Origin: Acidobacteriota bacterium
GTDB lineage: Bacteria > Acidobacteriota > Holophagae > Holophagales > Holophagaceae
Direction of reading: 5' to 3'
Length of the DNA stretch: 64,000 nucleotides
NCBI GenBank assembly: GCA_016195985.1
Contig: JACPYP010000020.1
Location: forward strand, 186,001 to 250,000
The stretch's first letter is position 1, and each line of letters begins with the position of its first letter. This document shows positions 50,084-62,338 of this stretch, one piece after another. The position numbers and the translations under genes are program-made. The notes beneath the pieces are model-generated. The model had not been told where the DNA came from. It made no database searches and saw only the letters and a list, made by a program, of their open reading frames with translations.

Positions 50084-50548
50084 ATGTCCTTCACCGACTC
50101 CAGGACCCACCAGAACCTCAAGGCCGCCTTCGCCGGGGAAAGCCAGGCGAACCGGCGCTACACCTGGATGGCCCAGGTCGCGGAGAAGGAAGGCCTGCCC
50201 GAGGTGGCCAGCCTGTTCAAGCACAGCGCCGACGGCGAGACGGGCCACGCCCTGCGGCACCTGATGTACCTCGCCGCGCAGGCGGGCGATCCGGCCACGG
50301 GCCTGCCCCTGGGCGACACGCTCACCAACCTGAAGTCCGCGGTGGCTGGCGAGACCTACGAGTACACCGACATGTATCCCGAATTCGCCCGGGTGGCCCG
50401 CGAGGAAGGCCACACCGAGATCGCGGCTTGGTTCGAGACGCTGGCCAAGGTGGAGCGCTTCCATGCGGGCCGCTTTCAGGACGCGCTAACCCGGCTCCAG
50501 GCAGGCAGCATCGCCAAGCCCGATGCCGACATCGCGAAGCACATCTGA
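50084..50548 (+). CDS. Rubrerythrin-family diiron protein
   Basis: A 154-residue four-helix ferritin-like protein. Iron-binding Glu and His are in [60 protein letters not shown] and [20 protein letters not shown], the four expected helices. The rubredoxin domain is missing, so it is the short type (rubrerythrin-like/erythrin). It would reduce peroxide in anaerobes or microaerophiles. ATG 50084 has AGGAG seven bases upstream. It heads a run of oxygen-defence genes. Confidence 0.9.
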
Positions 50549-50565
50549 CCAGGTTGAGGATCCCC

Positions 50566-51114
50566 ATGCTGCTAGCCTTCGACCCCGCGAGTGAACGCGC
50601 CCGCTTCGAATCCCGTCAGACTTTCCTGGCCCGTCAGGCCTCGCTGCGACTGGACCTGACCACGGGCATCACTTTCCAGCCGGAAACCGCCGAAAGCGTC
50701 GAGGATCAGGTGGTCGAGACCCTCTGGGCCGAAGGCATGACGCTGGAAACCGCTCCGGCTGAGGACGTGGCCGAATCCCGGGCCTCCTTCGCCGTGCTGG
50801 CGCCCCGCCGCGAACCGGGCGGCCGCAGCATCGTCGCCACCCTGTTCCTCGGTTTTCCCGACGGAACGCGCGATGCCAAGCTCGCCGCCCTCCATCGCTT
50901 CCCGGATCAGCTCCGGCTTGAACTGAGCGATGGTTCCTTCGCCCTTCCCGCCGTGGACCGCGGCGCCGCGGGGCCCGAGGACCGACTGCCTTCGGTGCTG
51001 GCCCTGCGCTTCACCGTTCCGGACGGCTGCAGCATCGCCGCCCTCGTCTCCAACCACGCCGAAGTCTCCGGCCGCTGGCCCGCGCCCGCGTCCTGGGCCT
51101 CCTGGCTTTCCTGA
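50566..51114 (+). CDS. DUF3501-like protein
   Basis: A 182-residue soluble protein. The pattern SRQTFLARQASLRLDLTTG, FQPETAESVEDQVVETLWAE, RSIVATLFLGFPDGTRDAKL and LPSVLALRFTVPDG fits the DUF3501 family, which is often encoded beside rubrerythrin. The function is unknown. It lies 17 bases after the rubrerythrin gene and 9 bases before the dps-like gene, so it is probably in the same operon. Family assignment is from memory of the pattern and is moderate. Confidence 0.65.
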   Translation: MLLAFDPASERARFESRQTFLARQASLRLDLTTGITFQPETAESVEDQVVETLWAEGMTLETAPAEDVAESRASFAVLAPRREPGGRSIVATLFLGFPDGTRDAKLAALHRFPDQLRLELSDGSFALPAVDRGAAGPEDRLPSVLALRFTVPDGCSIAALVSNHAEVSGRWPAPASWASWLS

Positions 51115-51123
51115 GGAGATCCC

Positions 51124-51567
51124 ATGAATCCATCCGTCATCAACCACCTGAATGCCGAACTGGCCACCGCCTTCGTGCTGGCCCTCAATGCCAAGCGCTA
51201 CCACTGGACCGTCAGCGGCCCCCACTTCCGCGACTATCACCTGCGCTTCGAGGATCTCTACACCGCCGCAGACGGTACCGTGGACGAACTGGCGGAGCGC
51301 ATCCGCATGTTGGGCGGCCTGCCGCTGCATGCCCCCTCCCAGATCGAGGCGCAGACCAAGGCGGCCATCTCCAACCCCGGCGCGCGGCTGGATTCCAAGG
51401 CCATGCTGCAGGAGGCTCTGTCCAACGAGGAAGCCACCATCGCCCTCATGCACGAAGGCATCGACCTGGCCAACGGCGCTGGCGACCCGGGCACGGCGGA
51501 CCTCCTCACCCGCTTCGTGCAGGTTCACCAGAAGGAGGCCTGGTTCCTTCACGAGATGTTGGGATAG
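51124..51567 (+). CDS. Dps-family DNA-binding ferritin-like protein
   Basis: A 147-residue Dps. The ferroxidase-site helix is clear: NAKRYHWTVSGPHFRDYHLR then FEDLYTAADGTVDELAERIR, giving His31-type, Asp and Glu iron ligands. The rest is the usual four-helix bundle. It stores iron by using peroxide as oxidant and protects DNA as a dodecamer; the Lys-rich DNA-binding N-terminal tail is absent, so DNA binding is doubtful. GAGGAG lies upstream of the ATG. It is the third gene of the stress group. Confidence 0.9.
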   Translation: MNPSVINHLNAELATAFVLALNAKRYHWTVSGPHFRDYHLRFEDLYTAADGTVDELAERIRMLGGLPLHAPSQIEAQTKAAISNPGARLDSKAMLQEALSNEEATIALMHEGIDLANGAGDPGTADLLTRFVQVHQKEAWFLHEMLG

Positions 51568-51640
51568 TCTGGTTTCTCCGAATTCCGACTTTTTTGGTAA
51601 ACTACTCGTCCACGCCCCCCCTGCCTCCAAGGAGATGACC

Positions 51641-52219
51641 ATGGCCTACACCGCCAAATCCTATGACCATTTGAAGGGCGGCGCCCTGAAGGGGCTCAGC
51701 GACGCCCAGCTGGACCAGCACTTCACCCTCTACAAAGGCTACGTCACCAAGCTGAACGAGATCGAAGAGAAGCTGGCGGCAGTGGACAACACCAAGCCCA
51801 ACTACTCCTTCAACGAATACAGCGAGCTGAAGCGCCGCGAAGCAGTGGCCTTCAACGGCTCCTTCCTGCACGAACTCTACTTCGAGAACCTGGGCGCCGA
51901 CAGCACCGTGAGCGCCGGCCTCAAGGCCGCCCTGGATGCCGCCGGCGGCCAGGACAAAGTCATCGCCGATCTGAAGGCCACGGCCATGGGCGGCCCCGGC
52001 TGGGCCCTGCTCACCCGCAACCGCCGCGACGGCAAGCTGCACACCTACTTCGTGGCCGAGCACCACCTGGGCCTGCCCATCGAGCAGGACCTGCTCGTGG
52101 TGCTGGACAGCTGGGAGCATGCGTTTATGGTCGACTATGGCATCGCCCGCGCGAAATACCTCGACGCCTTCGTCGAGAACATCAAGTGGAGCGAAGTCAG
52201 TCAGCGCTTCGGGAAATAG
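51641..52219 (+). CDS. Superoxide dismutase, Fe/Mn family
   Basis: A 192-residue cytoplasmic SodA/SodB homologue. The four metal ligands are in place: His27 in LDQHFTLYKGYV, His77 in FNGSFLHELYFENL, Asp156 and His160 in LDSWEHAFMVDYG. Where Fe- and Mn-SODs usually place a metal-tuning Gln, AEHHLGLP at 139-146 suggests a His instead. The metal cannot be predicted with confidence. ATG 51641 was chosen for AAGGAG. It ends the oxygen-defence group. Confidence 0.93.
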   Translation: MAYTAKSYDHLKGGALKGLSDAQLDQHFTLYKGYVTKLNEIEEKLAAVDNTKPNYSFNEYSELKRREAVAFNGSFLHELYFENLGADSTVSAGLKAALDAAGGQDKVIADLKATAMGGPGWALLTRNRRDGKLHTYFVAEHHLGLPIEQDLLVVLDSWEHAFMVDYGIARAKYLDAFVENIKWSEVSQRFGK

Positions 52220-54099: not shown

Positions 54100-54220
54100 T
54101 GCAAACCGGCGGATTCATCCCCTGATCCGACATCCAGCCGCCCGTCCCCGGCGTATCCATCTCTGACCCCGAAAGGGGCGGAAACGCTTTGATCCGGGCC
54201 TCGCCCGGAAGGAGGGGTGC

Positions 54221-55165
54221 GTGGGTTCGGAGATGGATCGGCTGACCTTCATGAAGCTGTTGGGCATCGGCGGGGCGGTATTCGCCACGGGGGTTCCCGG
54301 CTTTTCGGAAGCGCTGGGTTCCGCGGCCAAGGCCTCGGACTTCTACTTTGTGCAGCTCACGGATACGCACTGGGGTTTCGAGGGCCCCAAGGCAAACCCC
54401 GAGGCCATGGGCACCCTCGGCAAGGCCATCGATGCCGTGAACGCCCTCGACCCGCAGCCGGATTTCGTCGTCTTCACCGGTGACCTCACCCACATCACGG
54501 ATGACGCCGCGCTCCGCCGCAGGCGCATGGCGGAATTCAAGCAGCAGGCGGGTCGCCTCCGGGCCAGGCAGATCCGGTACCTGCCCGGCGAGCATGACGC
54601 TTCAGGCGACCAGGGCGAGGCCTACAGGGAGGCTTTCGGTCCCTCTCGCTATGTCTTCGCGCACAAGGGCATCCACTTCATCGCGCTGGACAATGTGTCC
54701 CAGGAGGGCTCCATCCTTGGCGAAGAACAGCTCAAATGGTTCGCCGGGACATTGGGCCACGTGCCCAAGGACGCGCCTCTGGTGATCTTCGCCCACCGTC
54801 CCCTCTTCCCCTTGTACCCCGATTGGGACTGGACCACCACCGACGGCCAGTTGGCCCTCGACCTGCTGAAAAACCACCGCTTCGTGACGGTGTTCTACGG
54901 GCACATCCATCAGGAGCACCACCACACCACCGGCCACATCCACCACCACGCGGCCACCTCGTTGATCTTTCCCCTTCCTGCTCCGGGTTCTACGCCCAAA
55001 CGGGCCCCGGTGCCCTGGGATCCAGCCCATCCCTACCAGGGCCTGGGCTTCCGGCAGATCCACGCCCAGCCGGGCCAACAGAAGGCAGGGGATGGCGAAG
55101 GGCTGCTCCAGGTCTCCGAAAAAGCCCTGGCCGCCACCCAGAAACCCGCGGGAACACCCGCATGA
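54221..55165 (+). CDS. Calcineurin-like metallophosphoesterase
   Basis: A 314-residue phosphoesterase. The binuclear metal site is spelled out: VQLTDTHWGF (D, H), VVFTGDLTH (D), LPGEHDASGD (where GNHD is usual), IFAHRPLFP (H) and FYGHIHQEHHH (GHxH). The N-terminal hydrophobic stretch KLLGIGGAVFATGVPGF is a likely export or anchor segment. GTG 54221 has AAGGAGG six bases upstream; ATG 54233 is an alternative. It overlaps the Rieske gene by four bases, so the pair is an operon. Substrate is unknown. Confidence 0.88.
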   Translation: MGSEMDRLTFMKLLGIGGAVFATGVPGFSEALGSAAKASDFYFVQLTDTHWGFEGPKANPEAMGTLGKAIDAVNALDPQPDFVVFTGDLTHITDDAALRRRRMAEFKQQAGRLRARQIRYLPGEHDASGDQGEAYREAFGPSRYVFAHKGIHFIALDNVSQEGSILGEEQLKWFAGTLGHVPKDAPLVIFAHRPLFPLYPDWDWTTTDGQLALDLLKNHRFVTVFYGHIHQEHHHTTGHIHHHAATSLIFPLPAPGSTPKRAPVPWDPAHPYQGLGFRQIHAQPGQQKAGDGEGLLQVSEKALAATQKPAGTPA

Positions 55166-55641
55166 TGCCGAAATCCTGTTGCGACGGAATGGGGGTGGAG
55201 GTTCGGTCCCGCCGGGTCTTTTGCACATCCCTCTGCGCCTTGGCGGCTGCGGCGGCCCTGCCCGGCCAGGCCCAGACCCCCAACGGCGGCGCCAAAGGGC
55301 CCGATCCCCAACCGCTGAAGACCACCGATGTGACCCGAGCCCAGATGCCCCCTGGCAAGGTGCTCGACTTCCGCAGGCTGGGAGCCTTCTACCTCCTGGC
55401 CGACGACAAGGGTGTCTTCGCCCTGACGGCGGTCTGCACCCACCGCGGTTGCCTGGTGCTCTCCGAGGGCGCCGCCGGTTTCGGCTGCCCCTGCCACGAC
55501 AGCGCCTACAACCTCCAAGGAGAAGTGACCGAAGGCCCCGCCAAACGGCCTCTGCGCCACCTCTCGGTGAAGGAGGTCACGCCCAAGGGCCCTCTGCAAG
55601 TGGATATCTCCACCACCGTGCCATCGGACACACGGCTTTGA
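55162..55641 (+). CDS. Exported Rieske [2Fe-2S] protein
   Basis: A 159-residue protein. The cluster motifs are CTHRGC and CPCHDSAY (Cys-x-His and Cys-x2-His), 16-20 residues apart. A twin-arginine-like leader, RSRRVFCTSLCALAAAAALPG, suggests Tat export with the cluster already inserted, as for other Rieske proteins. It is too small for a cytochrome bc1 subunit with its own helix anchor, so it may donate or accept electrons for another periplasmic enzyme, or accompany the metallophosphoesterase. ATG 55162 overlaps the stop of that gene. Confidence 0.88.
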   Translation: MMPKSCCDGMGVEVRSRRVFCTSLCALAAAAALPGQAQTPNGGAKGPDPQPLKTTDVTRAQMPPGKVLDFRRLGAFYLLADDKGVFALTAVCTHRGCLVLSEGAAGFGCPCHDSAYNLQGEVTEGPAKRPLRHLSVKEVTPKGPLQVDISTTVPSDTRL

Positions 55642-55715: not shown

Positions 55716-56777
55716 ATGCCCCTCCCCTTCCTCAACGACCCCTCCGGCCCGCCAGGCGAAGAGGATGCGGAGCTGTTGCGGCGCGTGCGCAACGGCGAGG
55801 AGCCGGCTTTGCAGCAACTGCACCGGCGCTACGCACCGCTGATTTTCCACTTGGCCTGTCGCGCCCTGGACCGGGCGGCGGCAGAAGAGATCGTGCAGGA
55901 CACGTTTCTCGCCGTGTGGCGGCGGGCCGGGGATTTCGATCCTGCGAAGGGATCCTTCCGAACGTGGCTGGTGAGCATCGGCCGCCACCGCATGCTGGAT
56001 GAATTGCGCGCCCGCTCCCGGCGGCCCCAGGCCGACGGCGAATTGGCCCTGGATCAAGCCGCCTTCTCCGCCCAGGACCCCCTTCCCGACGAAACCCTGT
56101 GGCGGGAGTACCAGCGCGACGCCGTATCCGAGGCCATGGCGGCCCTGCCTGAGCCCCAGCGCGCGGCCCTGCGCCTCGCCTTCTTCGCGGACCTCAGCCA
56201 TCAGGAAGTGGCCAAGGCCCTCAAGGTGCCGCTGGGCACCGCCAAGACGCGCATCCGCAGCGGCCTGAGGCTGCTGGAGCGGCATCTGGGCGGCCTGGTG
56301 GCCCTCCTCCTCGTGGCCTTGGCGGGGGCCGGCTCCTGGATCTGGCGCCGTGCGGGCGAGGCGGCACAGACGCGCCAGGCCCTCCACCTGCTTTCGGACA
56401 GCCAAACGAAGGCCCTCCGCCTGGTGCCGGATCCGGCCCCGGCTTCGCCCGAAACAGGCCTTCACGCCACCTTCCGCAGCGCCCCCGGCGCGGGCCTGGC
56501 GGTGCTGATGCAGACGCGCTTCCCCCAGCCCGCCCCGGGAAGCCATCACGTGCTTTGGATCCGCACCGGCCAGGGATGGCAGCACGTGGATCTCCGGCCC
56601 CCCGAGGACAGCGGGAAGGGATGGAGCATCCTGGAGGCCCCGTGGATGGACCAGGGCTGGCCCCTGGAACTGCGCGTCACCGTCGAAGCCGCATCCGCGA
56701 TCCCGTCCGCGGCCCAACCTTCAGGTCCCACCCTGGCCGTCTGGCGGGAGGCGGAAAGCTCTCCGGCAGCACCTTAG
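55716..56777 (+). CDS. ECF-type sigma factor fused to membrane helix and RskA-like anti-sigma domain
   Basis: A 353-residue fusion. Sigma region 2 lies at residues 34-100 (RALDRAAAEEIVQDTFLAVW, FRTWLVSIGRHRMLDELRAR). Region 4 lies at 135-190 (LPEPQRAALRLAFFADLSHQ, VPLGTAKTRIRSGLRLLERH). Directly after comes a membrane helix at 191-209 (LGGLVALLLVALAGAGSWIW), then residues 210-343 resemble the C-terminal sensor domain of RskA-type anti-sigma factors (GAGLAVLMQTRFPQPAPGSH, GPTLAVW). The zinc anti-sigma helix domain is missing. It would be a membrane-tethered sigma factor. It follows the metallophosphoesterase-Rieske operon by 74 bases; the start is weakly supported. Confidence 0.82.
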   Translation: MPLPFLNDPSGPPGEEDAELLRRVRNGEEPALQQLHRRYAPLIFHLACRALDRAAAEEIVQDTFLAVWRRAGDFDPAKGSFRTWLVSIGRHRMLDELRARSRRPQADGELALDQAAFSAQDPLPDETLWREYQRDAVSEAMAALPEPQRAALRLAFFADLSHQEVAKALKVPLGTAKTRIRSGLRLLERHLGGLVALLLVALAGAGSWIWRRAGEAAQTRQALHLLSDSQTKALRLVPDPAPASPETGLHATFRSAPGAGLAVLMQTRFPQPAPGSHHVLWIRTGQGWQHVDLRPPEDSGKGWSILEAPWMDQGWPLELRVTVEAASAIPSAAQPSGPTLAVWREAESSPAAP

Positions 56778-59904: not shown

Positions 59905-60990
59905 CTACATCAGGATGTTGAACAGGTACCCCACCAGCACGATGCCCAGGGTCACGACGCCCAGGAAGGTGGCGATCAGGGTGGGGCGCAGCACCTTCCG
60001 CAGGATGATGGTTTCGGGCAACGACAGTCCCGCCACCGCCATCATGAACGCCAGCGCCGTTCCCAGGGCCGCGCCTTTGGCCAGCAGCACCTGCACGATG
60101 GGGATGATGCCCGCCGCGCTGGCGTAGAGCGGCACGCCGATGAGCACGGCCAGAGGCACGCTCCACCAGGAGGACTTGCCCATGAAACGGGCCAGCAATT
60201 CCGCCGGCACATAGCCATGGAGGAAGGCCCCCACCGCGATGCCCGCCAGCACGTAGAGCCACACCTTGCCGACGATGTCGCGGGTGGCCTGCAGGGCTTG
60301 ATTGAGGCGGGCGGAAAAGCCCAGGGCCCCTCCGGCATCCACCGAGGCCTCGAAGGGAATCTCCATCACCCAGGCTTCCAGGTGCCGTTCCATGCGGAGC
60401 TTCCCGATGACCCAGCCTGACAGGAAGGCGATGGTCACGCCCGTAATGGTGTAGAGCAGCGCGATGCGCCAGCCGAAGAGGCCCAGCAGCAGGAAGAGCG
60501 CCACTTCATTCACCATGGGGGCCGAGATGAGAAAACTGAAGGTCGCTCCCAGGGGCACCCCCACGCGCACGAAACCGATGAAGAGCGGCACCGCGGAGCA
60601 AGAGCAGAAGGGCGTGGCGATGCCCAGGAGGGAGGCCAGCAGGTTCCCCCAGACGCCGGTGCGCTTCGCCAGCAGATCACGGGTGCGCTCGGGACTGATG
60701 AAGGTCTGCACGAAACTCACGCCCAGCACCACCAGCCCGAGAAGCAGCAGCACCTTGGGTCCGTCGTAGGCGAAGAAGGCCACCGCCTCGCCCAGCCGGC
60801 TGCCGGGCCGCAGGCCCAGGAGGTGGAAGGCCAGGCCGTCGGCCAGAGGCTTCAGGACCAGGTACAGCGCGATCCAAGCCGGGAGGGCGGCCAACAGCCA
60901 CCCCCCCGAAGCCCAGAAACCTGGACCGGCTTGTTTCGCTGGGGTTGCCGCCGTTCCGGCGCAGCCGCAGGCATTCACATCGCCGCTCAT
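59905..60990 (-). CDS. ArsP-like permease (DUF318 / UPF0718 family)
   Basis: A 361-residue inner-membrane protein with about ten spans. It carries GIATPFCSCSAVPLFIGFVR near residues 140-160, the cysteine-containing motif of the ArsP/YraQ family, and VPLYASAAGIIPIVQVLLAK in the second half (an inverted repeat of it). ArsP exports trivalent methylarsenicals such as methylarsenite and roxarsone products. The N-terminal NACGCAG may bind metal. ATG 60990 has GGAGG upstream and is 4 bases from the arsM stop, so the two are coupled. Confidence 0.85.
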   Translation of the reverse strand: MSGDVNACGCAGTAATPAKQAGPGFWASGGWLLAALPAWIALYLVLKPLADGLAFHLLGLRPGSRLGEAVAFFAYDGPKVLLLLGLVVLGVSFVQTFISPERTRDLLAKRTGVWGNLLASLLGIATPFCSCSAVPLFIGFVRVGVPLGATFSFLISAPMVNEVALFLLLGLFGWRIALLYTITGVTIAFLSGWVIGKLRMERHLEAWVMEIPFEASVDAGGALGFSARLNQALQATRDIVGKVWLYVLAGIAVGAFLHGYVPAELLARFMGKSSWWSVPLAVLIGVPLYASAAGIIPIVQVLLAKGAALGTALAFMMAVAGLSLPETIILRKVLRPTLIATFLGVVTLGIVLVGYLFNILM

Positions 60991-60994
60991 GCTC

Positions 60995-61861
60995 TCATCC
61001 TCCGCAGCAGGTGGGCGCGCAACCGCAGGCCCGTCCACTCGGTTCTTTGAATCCTTCCACCTGGATGCTCAACACCGCTTCCGCCGCCAGGCCCAGTTCC
61101 TCGGCGCTGAGCCCAGGGTTCCGCTCCCGAGCCGCCTCCAGGAATTCCGGCGAGAACAGTTCGAGGCTGTGGACCCGTTCGCCCAACACGGCCACCCCGC
61201 TGAAACCCGCCGCCTGGATGGCGCCCAGGTAATCCGCCTTGAGGAGCGCTCCGGCCACGCAGGCGCCATAGGCGTCCAGATCCTGAGCCAGGGCTTCGGG
61301 CAGAGGACGGGCCAGCACCATGTCCGCCACGAAGAGCCGCCCGCCGGGCTTCAGCACCCGGTGCGCTTCGCGGAACACCCGGGCCTTGTCCGTGCTGAGG
61401 TTCACCACGCAGTTGGAGATGATCACATCCACGGCGGCATCGGCCACGGGCAGGTTTTCGATGTCGCCCAGGCGGAACTCGACATTGGCGTAACCGTGCT
61501 TCCCGGCCAGCGTGGTGGCCCGTTGGATCATCTCGGGCGTCATGTCCACGCCGATGACACGGCCCTCCGGCCCGACGCGCTTCGAGGCCAGGAAGGCGTC
61601 GAAGCCCGCGCCGGAGCCCAAGTCCAGCACCGTCTCTCCCGGCTTCAGGGAGGCCAGGGCCACGGGGTTGCCGCACCCCAGGCCCAGGTTGGCCCCCTCC
61701 GGCACGGCCTGGAGATCCTGGTCGGCATAGCCCGACTGAAGGCTCGTTTCCTCCGGGGCGCACGATCCGCATGCAGAGATCGGTCCGCAACAACCTTGGT
61801 TCTGGGTGACGACACCGGCGTAGCGTTTCCGCACAGCGGCTTTGATGGTTTGGGAATCCAT
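60995..61861 (-). CDS. arsM: Arsenite S-adenosylmethionine methyltransferase
   Basis: A 288-residue ArsM that methylates As(III) to volatile or exportable forms. AdoMet motif I is VLDLGSGAGFDAFLASKRVG, followed by VIGVDMTPEMIQRA. Arsenic-binding cysteines: NQGCCGPISACGSCAPEE near 22-36, ISNCVVNLS near 150, GACVAG near 200, and a Cys-rich end RACGCAPTCCGG. It sits between arsR and the ArsP-like permease, matching a make-and-export organoarsenical pathway. Confidence 0.95.
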   Translation of the reverse strand: MDSQTIKAAVRKRYAGVVTQNQGCCGPISACGSCAPEETSLQSGYADQDLQAVPEGANLGLGCGNPVALASLKPGETVLDLGSGAGFDAFLASKRVGPEGRVIGVDMTPEMIQRATTLAGKHGYANVEFRLGDIENLPVADAAVDVIISNCVVNLSTDKARVFREAHRVLKPGGRLFVADMVLARPLPEALAQDLDAYGACVAGALLKADYLGAIQAAGFSGVAVLGERVHSLELFSPEFLEAARERNPGLSAEELGLAAEAVLSIQVEGFKEPSGRACGCAPTCCGG

Positions 61862-61931
61862 GGTGATTCCTTTCGAGGGGCAGAGGTTCCCCGGGACGCC
61901 TCGGCATCCGGGTCTCCAGGAAGGTGGAAGG

Positions 61932-62279
61932 TCAGTCCCCGCTGCAGCAGGGCGAAGGTTTGGCTTTCTTTCGGGGCTTGGACTCGGCGCCGCCGGAGCA
62001 GCAGTCCTCCCAGAGGTACTCGGTCAGGGCGCGCAGCGCGCCGAACTCCGCGCGGTAGCGCAGGGTGGTGCCTTCCCGGGCCACGGAAACCAACCCCGCC
62101 TCGGCCAGCGAAGCCAGGTGGTGGCTGAGGGTGGAGGCGGGAATCTCCAGGCGCGCCTGTAGTTCCCCAGCGGGCGTCCCCGCCACAGGACCCTGCACCA
62201 CGCTGCGGAGGATGGTCAGGCGCACCGGGTGGCCCAGGGCTTTCAGCTGTTCCGCTGCCTGCTCCACCAACCGCCGCAT
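61932..62279 (-). CDS. arsR: ArsR/SmtB-family repressor
   Basis: A 115-residue repressor. The winged helix is PVRLTILRSVVQGPVAGTPA, EIPASTLSHHLASLAEAGLV and EGTTLRYRA. The canonical DNA-recognition-helix CVC site for arsenic is not present; instead cysteine pairs lie at the C-terminus (WEDCCSGG and KPSPCCSGD), a layout seen in some ArsR subtypes. AGGAGG lies five bases before ATG 62279, which was preferred over the longer frame. It is downstream of acr3-arsC and reads on into arsM. Confidence 0.92.
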   Translation of the reverse strand: MRRLVEQAAEQLKALGHPVRLTILRSVVQGPVAGTPAGELQARLEIPASTLSHHLASLAEAGLVSVAREGTTLRYRAEFGALRALTEYLWEDCCSGGAESKPRKKAKPSPCCSGD

Positions 62280-62307
62280 GAACTCCTCCTGGCCTAATTC
62301 TAGAATT

Positions 62308-62338
62308 ATCGAAATAACATGCAAGACCTAATTTCGAT
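62308..62338. promoter_or_regulatory. Candidate ArsR operator upstream of arsR
   Basis: Perfect inverted repeat ATCGAAAT / ATTTCGAT with 15 bases between, in an AT-rich patch 28 bases before the arsR start and just after the arsC stop. It fits a repressor site for the arsR-arsM-permease part of the cluster, giving it its own promoter. Confidence 0.6.

Follow-up and report, generated by a model that had tools for sequence, protein, structure and literature searches.

The window analysed here, a stretch of 64,000 nucleotides from a member of the Holophagaceae (Acidobacteriota), contains a three-gene operon on the forward strand. The first gene (54221 to 55165) encodes an exported metallophosphoesterase (Metallophos, 1.6e-12), and the second (55162 to 55641) an exported Rieske [2Fe-2S] protein with the ligand motif CTHRGC...CPCH, identified by a Rieske match (2.6e-12) and by synteny. 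Its start overlaps the stop of the metallophosphoesterase gene (ATGA). The third gene (55716 to 56777) is a single open frame of 353 codons for amino acids, with the stop codon at 56775 to 56777, in which a sigma factor, a membrane anchor and an RskA_C-like ectodomain form one chain. The ATG at 55716 is common to the Geothrix orthologues; an ATG located 11 bases further upstream was rejected as the start, being out of frame and lost in one orthologous locus (L037). A candidate ECF-type promoter lies in front of the first gene, at 54131 to 54156 on the forward strand, with a -35 element CATCCA, a 13-base spacer and a -10 element GGCGTAT, and was recognized as conserved upstream DNA. None of the operon's genes was recognized as encoding a protease, and inspection of the gene neighbours revealed no TonB-dependent receptor gene in it.

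Genes for rubrerythrin, a Dps-like ferritin and a Fe/Mn superoxide dismutase are found a few kb upstream of the operon (50084 to 52219), a setting that recurs in many orthologous loci. A probable arsenic cluster, consisting of genes for an ArsP-type permease, an ArsM-like methyltransferase and an ArsR-like regulator (59908 to 62324, reverse strand), is likewise kept downstream in many of them.

A reading made from the sequence alone had described the third gene as an ECF sigma factor with regions 2 and 4, a membrane helix and an RskA-like sensor in one frame, preceded by an exported metallophosphoesterase and a Rieske protein. Domain matches and hydrophobicity bear out this architecture, and both neighbours are as described. 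The sigma part (residues 15-190; 55758 to 56285, forward strand) is matched by Sigma70_r2 at residues 35-103 (7.5e-19) and by Sigma70_r4_2 at residues 135-186 (2.9e-11), both well above cut-off, and TIGR02937 scores 100.8 bits (cut-off 42.9). Matches are confined to models of region 2, of region 4 and of whole ECF factors, and regions 1.1 and 3 are absent, which is the ECF layout. A Foldseek search with the cytosolic part returned sigmaE, AlgU, SigK and SigW. Hydrophobicity and the structure model place the membrane helix at about residues 191-210 (56286 to 56345, forward strand); every homologue of the fusion has a hydrophobic peak at approximately residues 191-209, and the gap between region 4 and the membrane helix is only about four residues. 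The remainder of the chain, about residues 213-345 (56352 to 56750, forward strand), is a predicted exported beta domain. In the window protein itself, the RskA_C match to this part (residues 195-338) stays below the Pfam cut-off (E = 0.0024 when the C-terminal part is searched alone). The assignment is nevertheless firm because the C-terminal parts of relatives match RskA_C: each of the 18 aligned sequences does so, the best with 2.7e-11, and the proteins of G529 and G082 exceed the curated cut-off of 29.4 bits, the scores being 41 and 62.5 bits. Foldseek yielded only weak matches of the ectodomain to Ig/FN3-like beta-sandwiches, none below 0.001, and a likeness to dUTPase in a profile search of PDB sequences consisted of weak matches that we regard as chance. 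We infer a topology in which the sigma factor is cytosolic and the RskA-like domain is exported.

The zinc anti-sigma helices that normally grip a sigma factor were said to be missing from the chain, and this proved correct: neither zf-HC2 nor RskA_N matches the window protein or any of the three other fusions scanned, and the fusion has no FecR match either. The separate RskA proteins of Acidobacteriota carry zf-HC2 and/or RskA_N in addition to RskA_C, although some of these matches are weak. It is conceivable that a separate anti-sigma factor encoded elsewhere clamps the sigma factor and that the anchor merely positions it, and there are indeed four zf-HC2 matches in the source genome. Two of them, however, adjoin by coordinates two of this genome's three further ECF-like sigma hits and thus have partners of their own, the fused domain is the only RskA_C instance in the genome, and in the loci that were inspected the fusion has no anti-sigma gene as a neighbour. 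We therefore consider a clamp supplied in trans very doubtful.

The fusion is present in 21 genomes, 16 of which belong to the Geothrix genus group, three to a sister genus of the same family (G082, G089 and G094) and two to another acidobacterial class (G336 and G529). Within the Geothrix genus group, most of the proteins are 65-73% identical to the window fusion, and that of G001 is 47% identical. An assembly error or a local deletion had been named as the explanation to fear should the fusion be unique and relatives have a separate zinc-domain anti-sigma gene. As the same fusion is carried by many independent genomes, cultured isolates among them, an artefact is refuted for practical purposes. 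The neighbours are conserved as well, with the order metallophosphoesterase, Rieske protein, fusion in 19 of 19 Holophagaceae loci, of which that of G082 has an extra membrane-protein frame between the Rieske gene and the fusion. In the other class, the middle gene of the G336 operon encodes a CuA-type cupredoxin in place of the Rieske protein, and the fusion of G529 is preceded by a DoxX-like gene. The product of this latter gene (L186, 2984-3544) has a weak match to HvfX, a family involved in the maturation of copper-binding peptides.

Maximum-likelihood analysis of the sigma domains places the fused sigma factors in a single clade (bootstrap 98, SH-aLRT 98), which was also recovered in a quick tree of 110 rows (support 97). 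Their sister group consists of acidobacterial sigma factors, most of which have a separate RskA-like gene (approximately 260-300 residues) directly 3' of the sigma gene. A single fusion event accompanied by loss of the anti-sigma domain thus explains the data; transfer of the fusion between lineages is possible. A long sigma factor at locus L058 was considered and discarded, its tail being an unrelated multi-helix one.

The family could also represent a sigma/RskA pair in decay, deprived of its clamp and controlled only by transcription or slow turnover. Occurrence in Geothrix is patchy (13 of 37 genomes of the genus in one survey), and the ectodomain changes more quickly than the sigma part does: the median dN/dS (NG86) is 0.16 in the sigma part and 0.36 in the ectodomain, with 0.50 in the membrane helix, all three values being rough since dS is near 0.8. 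Judged from these codon comparisons, however, both halves of the fusion are under purifying selection, and the frame is intact in 21 genomes from two classes, which makes decay very improbable. By the same measure, sequence constraint on the membrane helix is not strong beyond hydrophobicity.

In 14 aligned Geothrix loci, the DNA 5' of the metallophosphoesterase gene is variable except for two blocks, CATCC and CGTAT, and variants of the motif occur at L138, L134, L135 and L136. The exact sequence CATCCA-N13-GGCGTAT is found once in the window; an R-degenerate -35 pattern of the RATCCR type has no match there, the window motif starting with CATCCA. The operons of the other class have CATCCA-N13-GGTGTAT (G336) and CATCCA-N13-GGTGTAC (G529), with equal spacing, and the motif is kept despite their different first genes (metallophosphoesterase and DoxX, respectively). 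A strict pattern search of 20 genomes, ten of them carriers, found the operon site in nine of the ten carriers. The few remaining matches lay elsewhere than in the operon, one of these sites being nearly identical in carriers and non-carriers, and the operon was the sole carrier-specific target. With a slightly relaxed motif, a search of 202 loci returned the fusion operons, those same extra sites and one match in L049. This coupling of motif and fusion suggests that the candidate promoter is recognized by the fused sigma factor.

The two upstream genes had originally been taken as a hint at a periplasmic redox or phosphate signal. Because the conserved promoter precedes the metallophosphoesterase gene, they are more likely outputs than signals, and we regard both proteins as probably co-expressed targets of the switch; within Geothrix, the metallophosphoesterase is found only in genomes that carry the fusion. 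The redox part of the proposal is plausible, since the redox protein has been exchanged for a cupredoxin in G336, but phosphate sensing by the fusion is unsupported and was set aside.

Related metallophosphoesterases are encoded together with exported redox proteins and ECF sigma factors at other loci as well, including some from other phyla. On the Mycobacteroides abscessus plasmid NC_021278.1 (L183), genes for an ECF sigma factor, a membrane Rieske protein, a cupredoxin and a metallophosphoesterase follow each other in this order. The membrane protein (L183, 2712-3416), which has a C-terminal Rieske domain and overlaps the stop of the sigma gene, may act as an anti-sigma factor whose sensor is the Rieske domain. 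In Cupriavidus and Gemmatirosa (L181 and L182), an ECF sigma factor and a zinc-finger anti-sigma factor are encoded near a metallophosphoesterase and a cupredoxin, and a second Geothrix locus (L137, in G016) combines a metallophosphoesterase, a membrane protein, a cytochrome c and a divergent sigma/zinc-finger anti-sigma pair. It is a reasonable guess that loci of this kind share an envelope redox role across phyla.

Fusions of sigma factors with membrane sensors are already known. The closest parallel is IutY of Pseudomonas putida (ECF243), in which a cytosolic ECF sigma factor is followed by one transmembrane segment and a periplasmic domain, and which is released by Prc and RseP (PMC5411451, PMC9249621). 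A 168-residue form of IutY lacks the membrane segment, the periplasmic part begins near residue 187, and a length of 237 residues leaves about 50 of them in the periplasm (PMC5411451, PMC9249621). By these numbers, a cytosolic clamp would hardly fit into IutY, if at all. The acidobacterial fusion likewise has one membrane segment close behind region 4, a periplasmic domain of anti-sigma type and no cytosolic clamp. It differs from IutY in that its exported domain is RskA_C-like and its operon has no receptor gene, whereas IutY has a FecR-like domain that is partnered by a TonB-dependent receptor; the phylum and the target genes are different, too. C-terminal membrane extensions are also found in the sigma factors of ECF48, ECF52 (SCO4117) and ECF53 of Actinobacteria, but in these a zinc-finger anti-sigma domain, which the fusion does not have, separates the sigma factor from the membrane, and ECF52 has a carbohydrate-binding domain. 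SigK/RskA (ECF18/ECF19) and the acidobacterial sigma/RskA pairs resemble the fusion in their parts, its sigma domain being near SigK models and its ectodomain being RskA_C, but they divide these parts between two proteins and include a cytoplasmic anti-sigma domain, whereas the fusion is one chain without it. RskA of M. tuberculosis is cut by Rip1 (PMC7509140).

The reading from sequence alone had named two possibilities for such a tethered sigma factor, freeing by proteolysis and action in place. With IutY as the tested precedent, we favour, with a probability of roughly two in three, a model in which the tethered sigma factor is held inactive at the membrane and then released by proteolysis. 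The sigma factor would be synthesized already tethered, with region 4 running straight into the membrane helix, and fixation at the membrane would keep the full-length chain off promoters without an anti-sigma clamp. An envelope signal, for which redox or metal stress is a guess, would meet the exported RskA-like domain; a periplasmic site-1 protease would then trim this domain and an RseP-like site-2 protease would cut the membrane helix. The freed sigma factor would transcribe its own operon from CATCCA-N13-GGCGTAT, yielding the exported metallophosphoesterase, the exported Rieske protein and more of the fusion protein. Inactivity through tethering and activation by proteolysis are both inferred steps. 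Two site-2 protease matches are present in the source genome, which is weak support because nearly all bacteria have such proteases, as seen in control genomes.

A tethered sigma factor might also bind promoters near the membrane, which would speak against release. The sigma factor would then act uncut, and the state of the ectodomain would be passed through a continuous helix to the DNA-reading helix in the manner of ToxR or CadC. The AlphaFold model of the full-length fusion (mean pLDDT 81.5; pTM 0.45; relative placement of the domains unreliable) shows the last helix of region 4 and the membrane segment as a single helix (residues 173-227), modelled without a break from the recognition helix onwards. 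An AlphaFold model of the membrane helix plus ectodomain has a pLDDT of 88. The distance between sigma part and membrane is nearly constant across homologues, as this mode of action would have it. However, AlphaFold frequently models two helices as one where a hinge separates them, and the continuity may be of this kind. With a gap of about four residues, RNA polymerase and promoter DNA would moreover face steric difficulty in docking, and IutY, the one tested protein with such a layout, needs proteolysis. Action in place is thus unlikely in our view, and its full form, a cleavage-free membrane-embedded sigma factor whose unbroken helix couples the exported domain to the DNA-reading helix so that operon transcription starts at the membrane surface, is more unlikely still.

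Our literature search returned no RskA-type fusion without a clamp and no such operon, and nothing on point regarding metallophosphoesterase/cupredoxin/sigma modules and membrane-anchored sigma factors; the fusion may already have an ECF group number. What is new here is the gene order conserved in 19 Holophagaceae loci and the conserved ECF-type promoter in front of the operon. For holding their sigma factor, most ECF systems depend on an anti-sigma domain. The fusion family has kept the RskA sensor and dropped the clamp, a parallel to IutY with its FecR-type sensor. Since the clamp has been dropped in both, tethering alone may suffice for control, and this solution has apparently evolved on at least two occasions. 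Because a probable promoter is known and the system consists of one protein and one operon, the off-state and the release of a tethered sigma factor can be tested directly. The layout of the fusion may be a compact design for envelope sensors.
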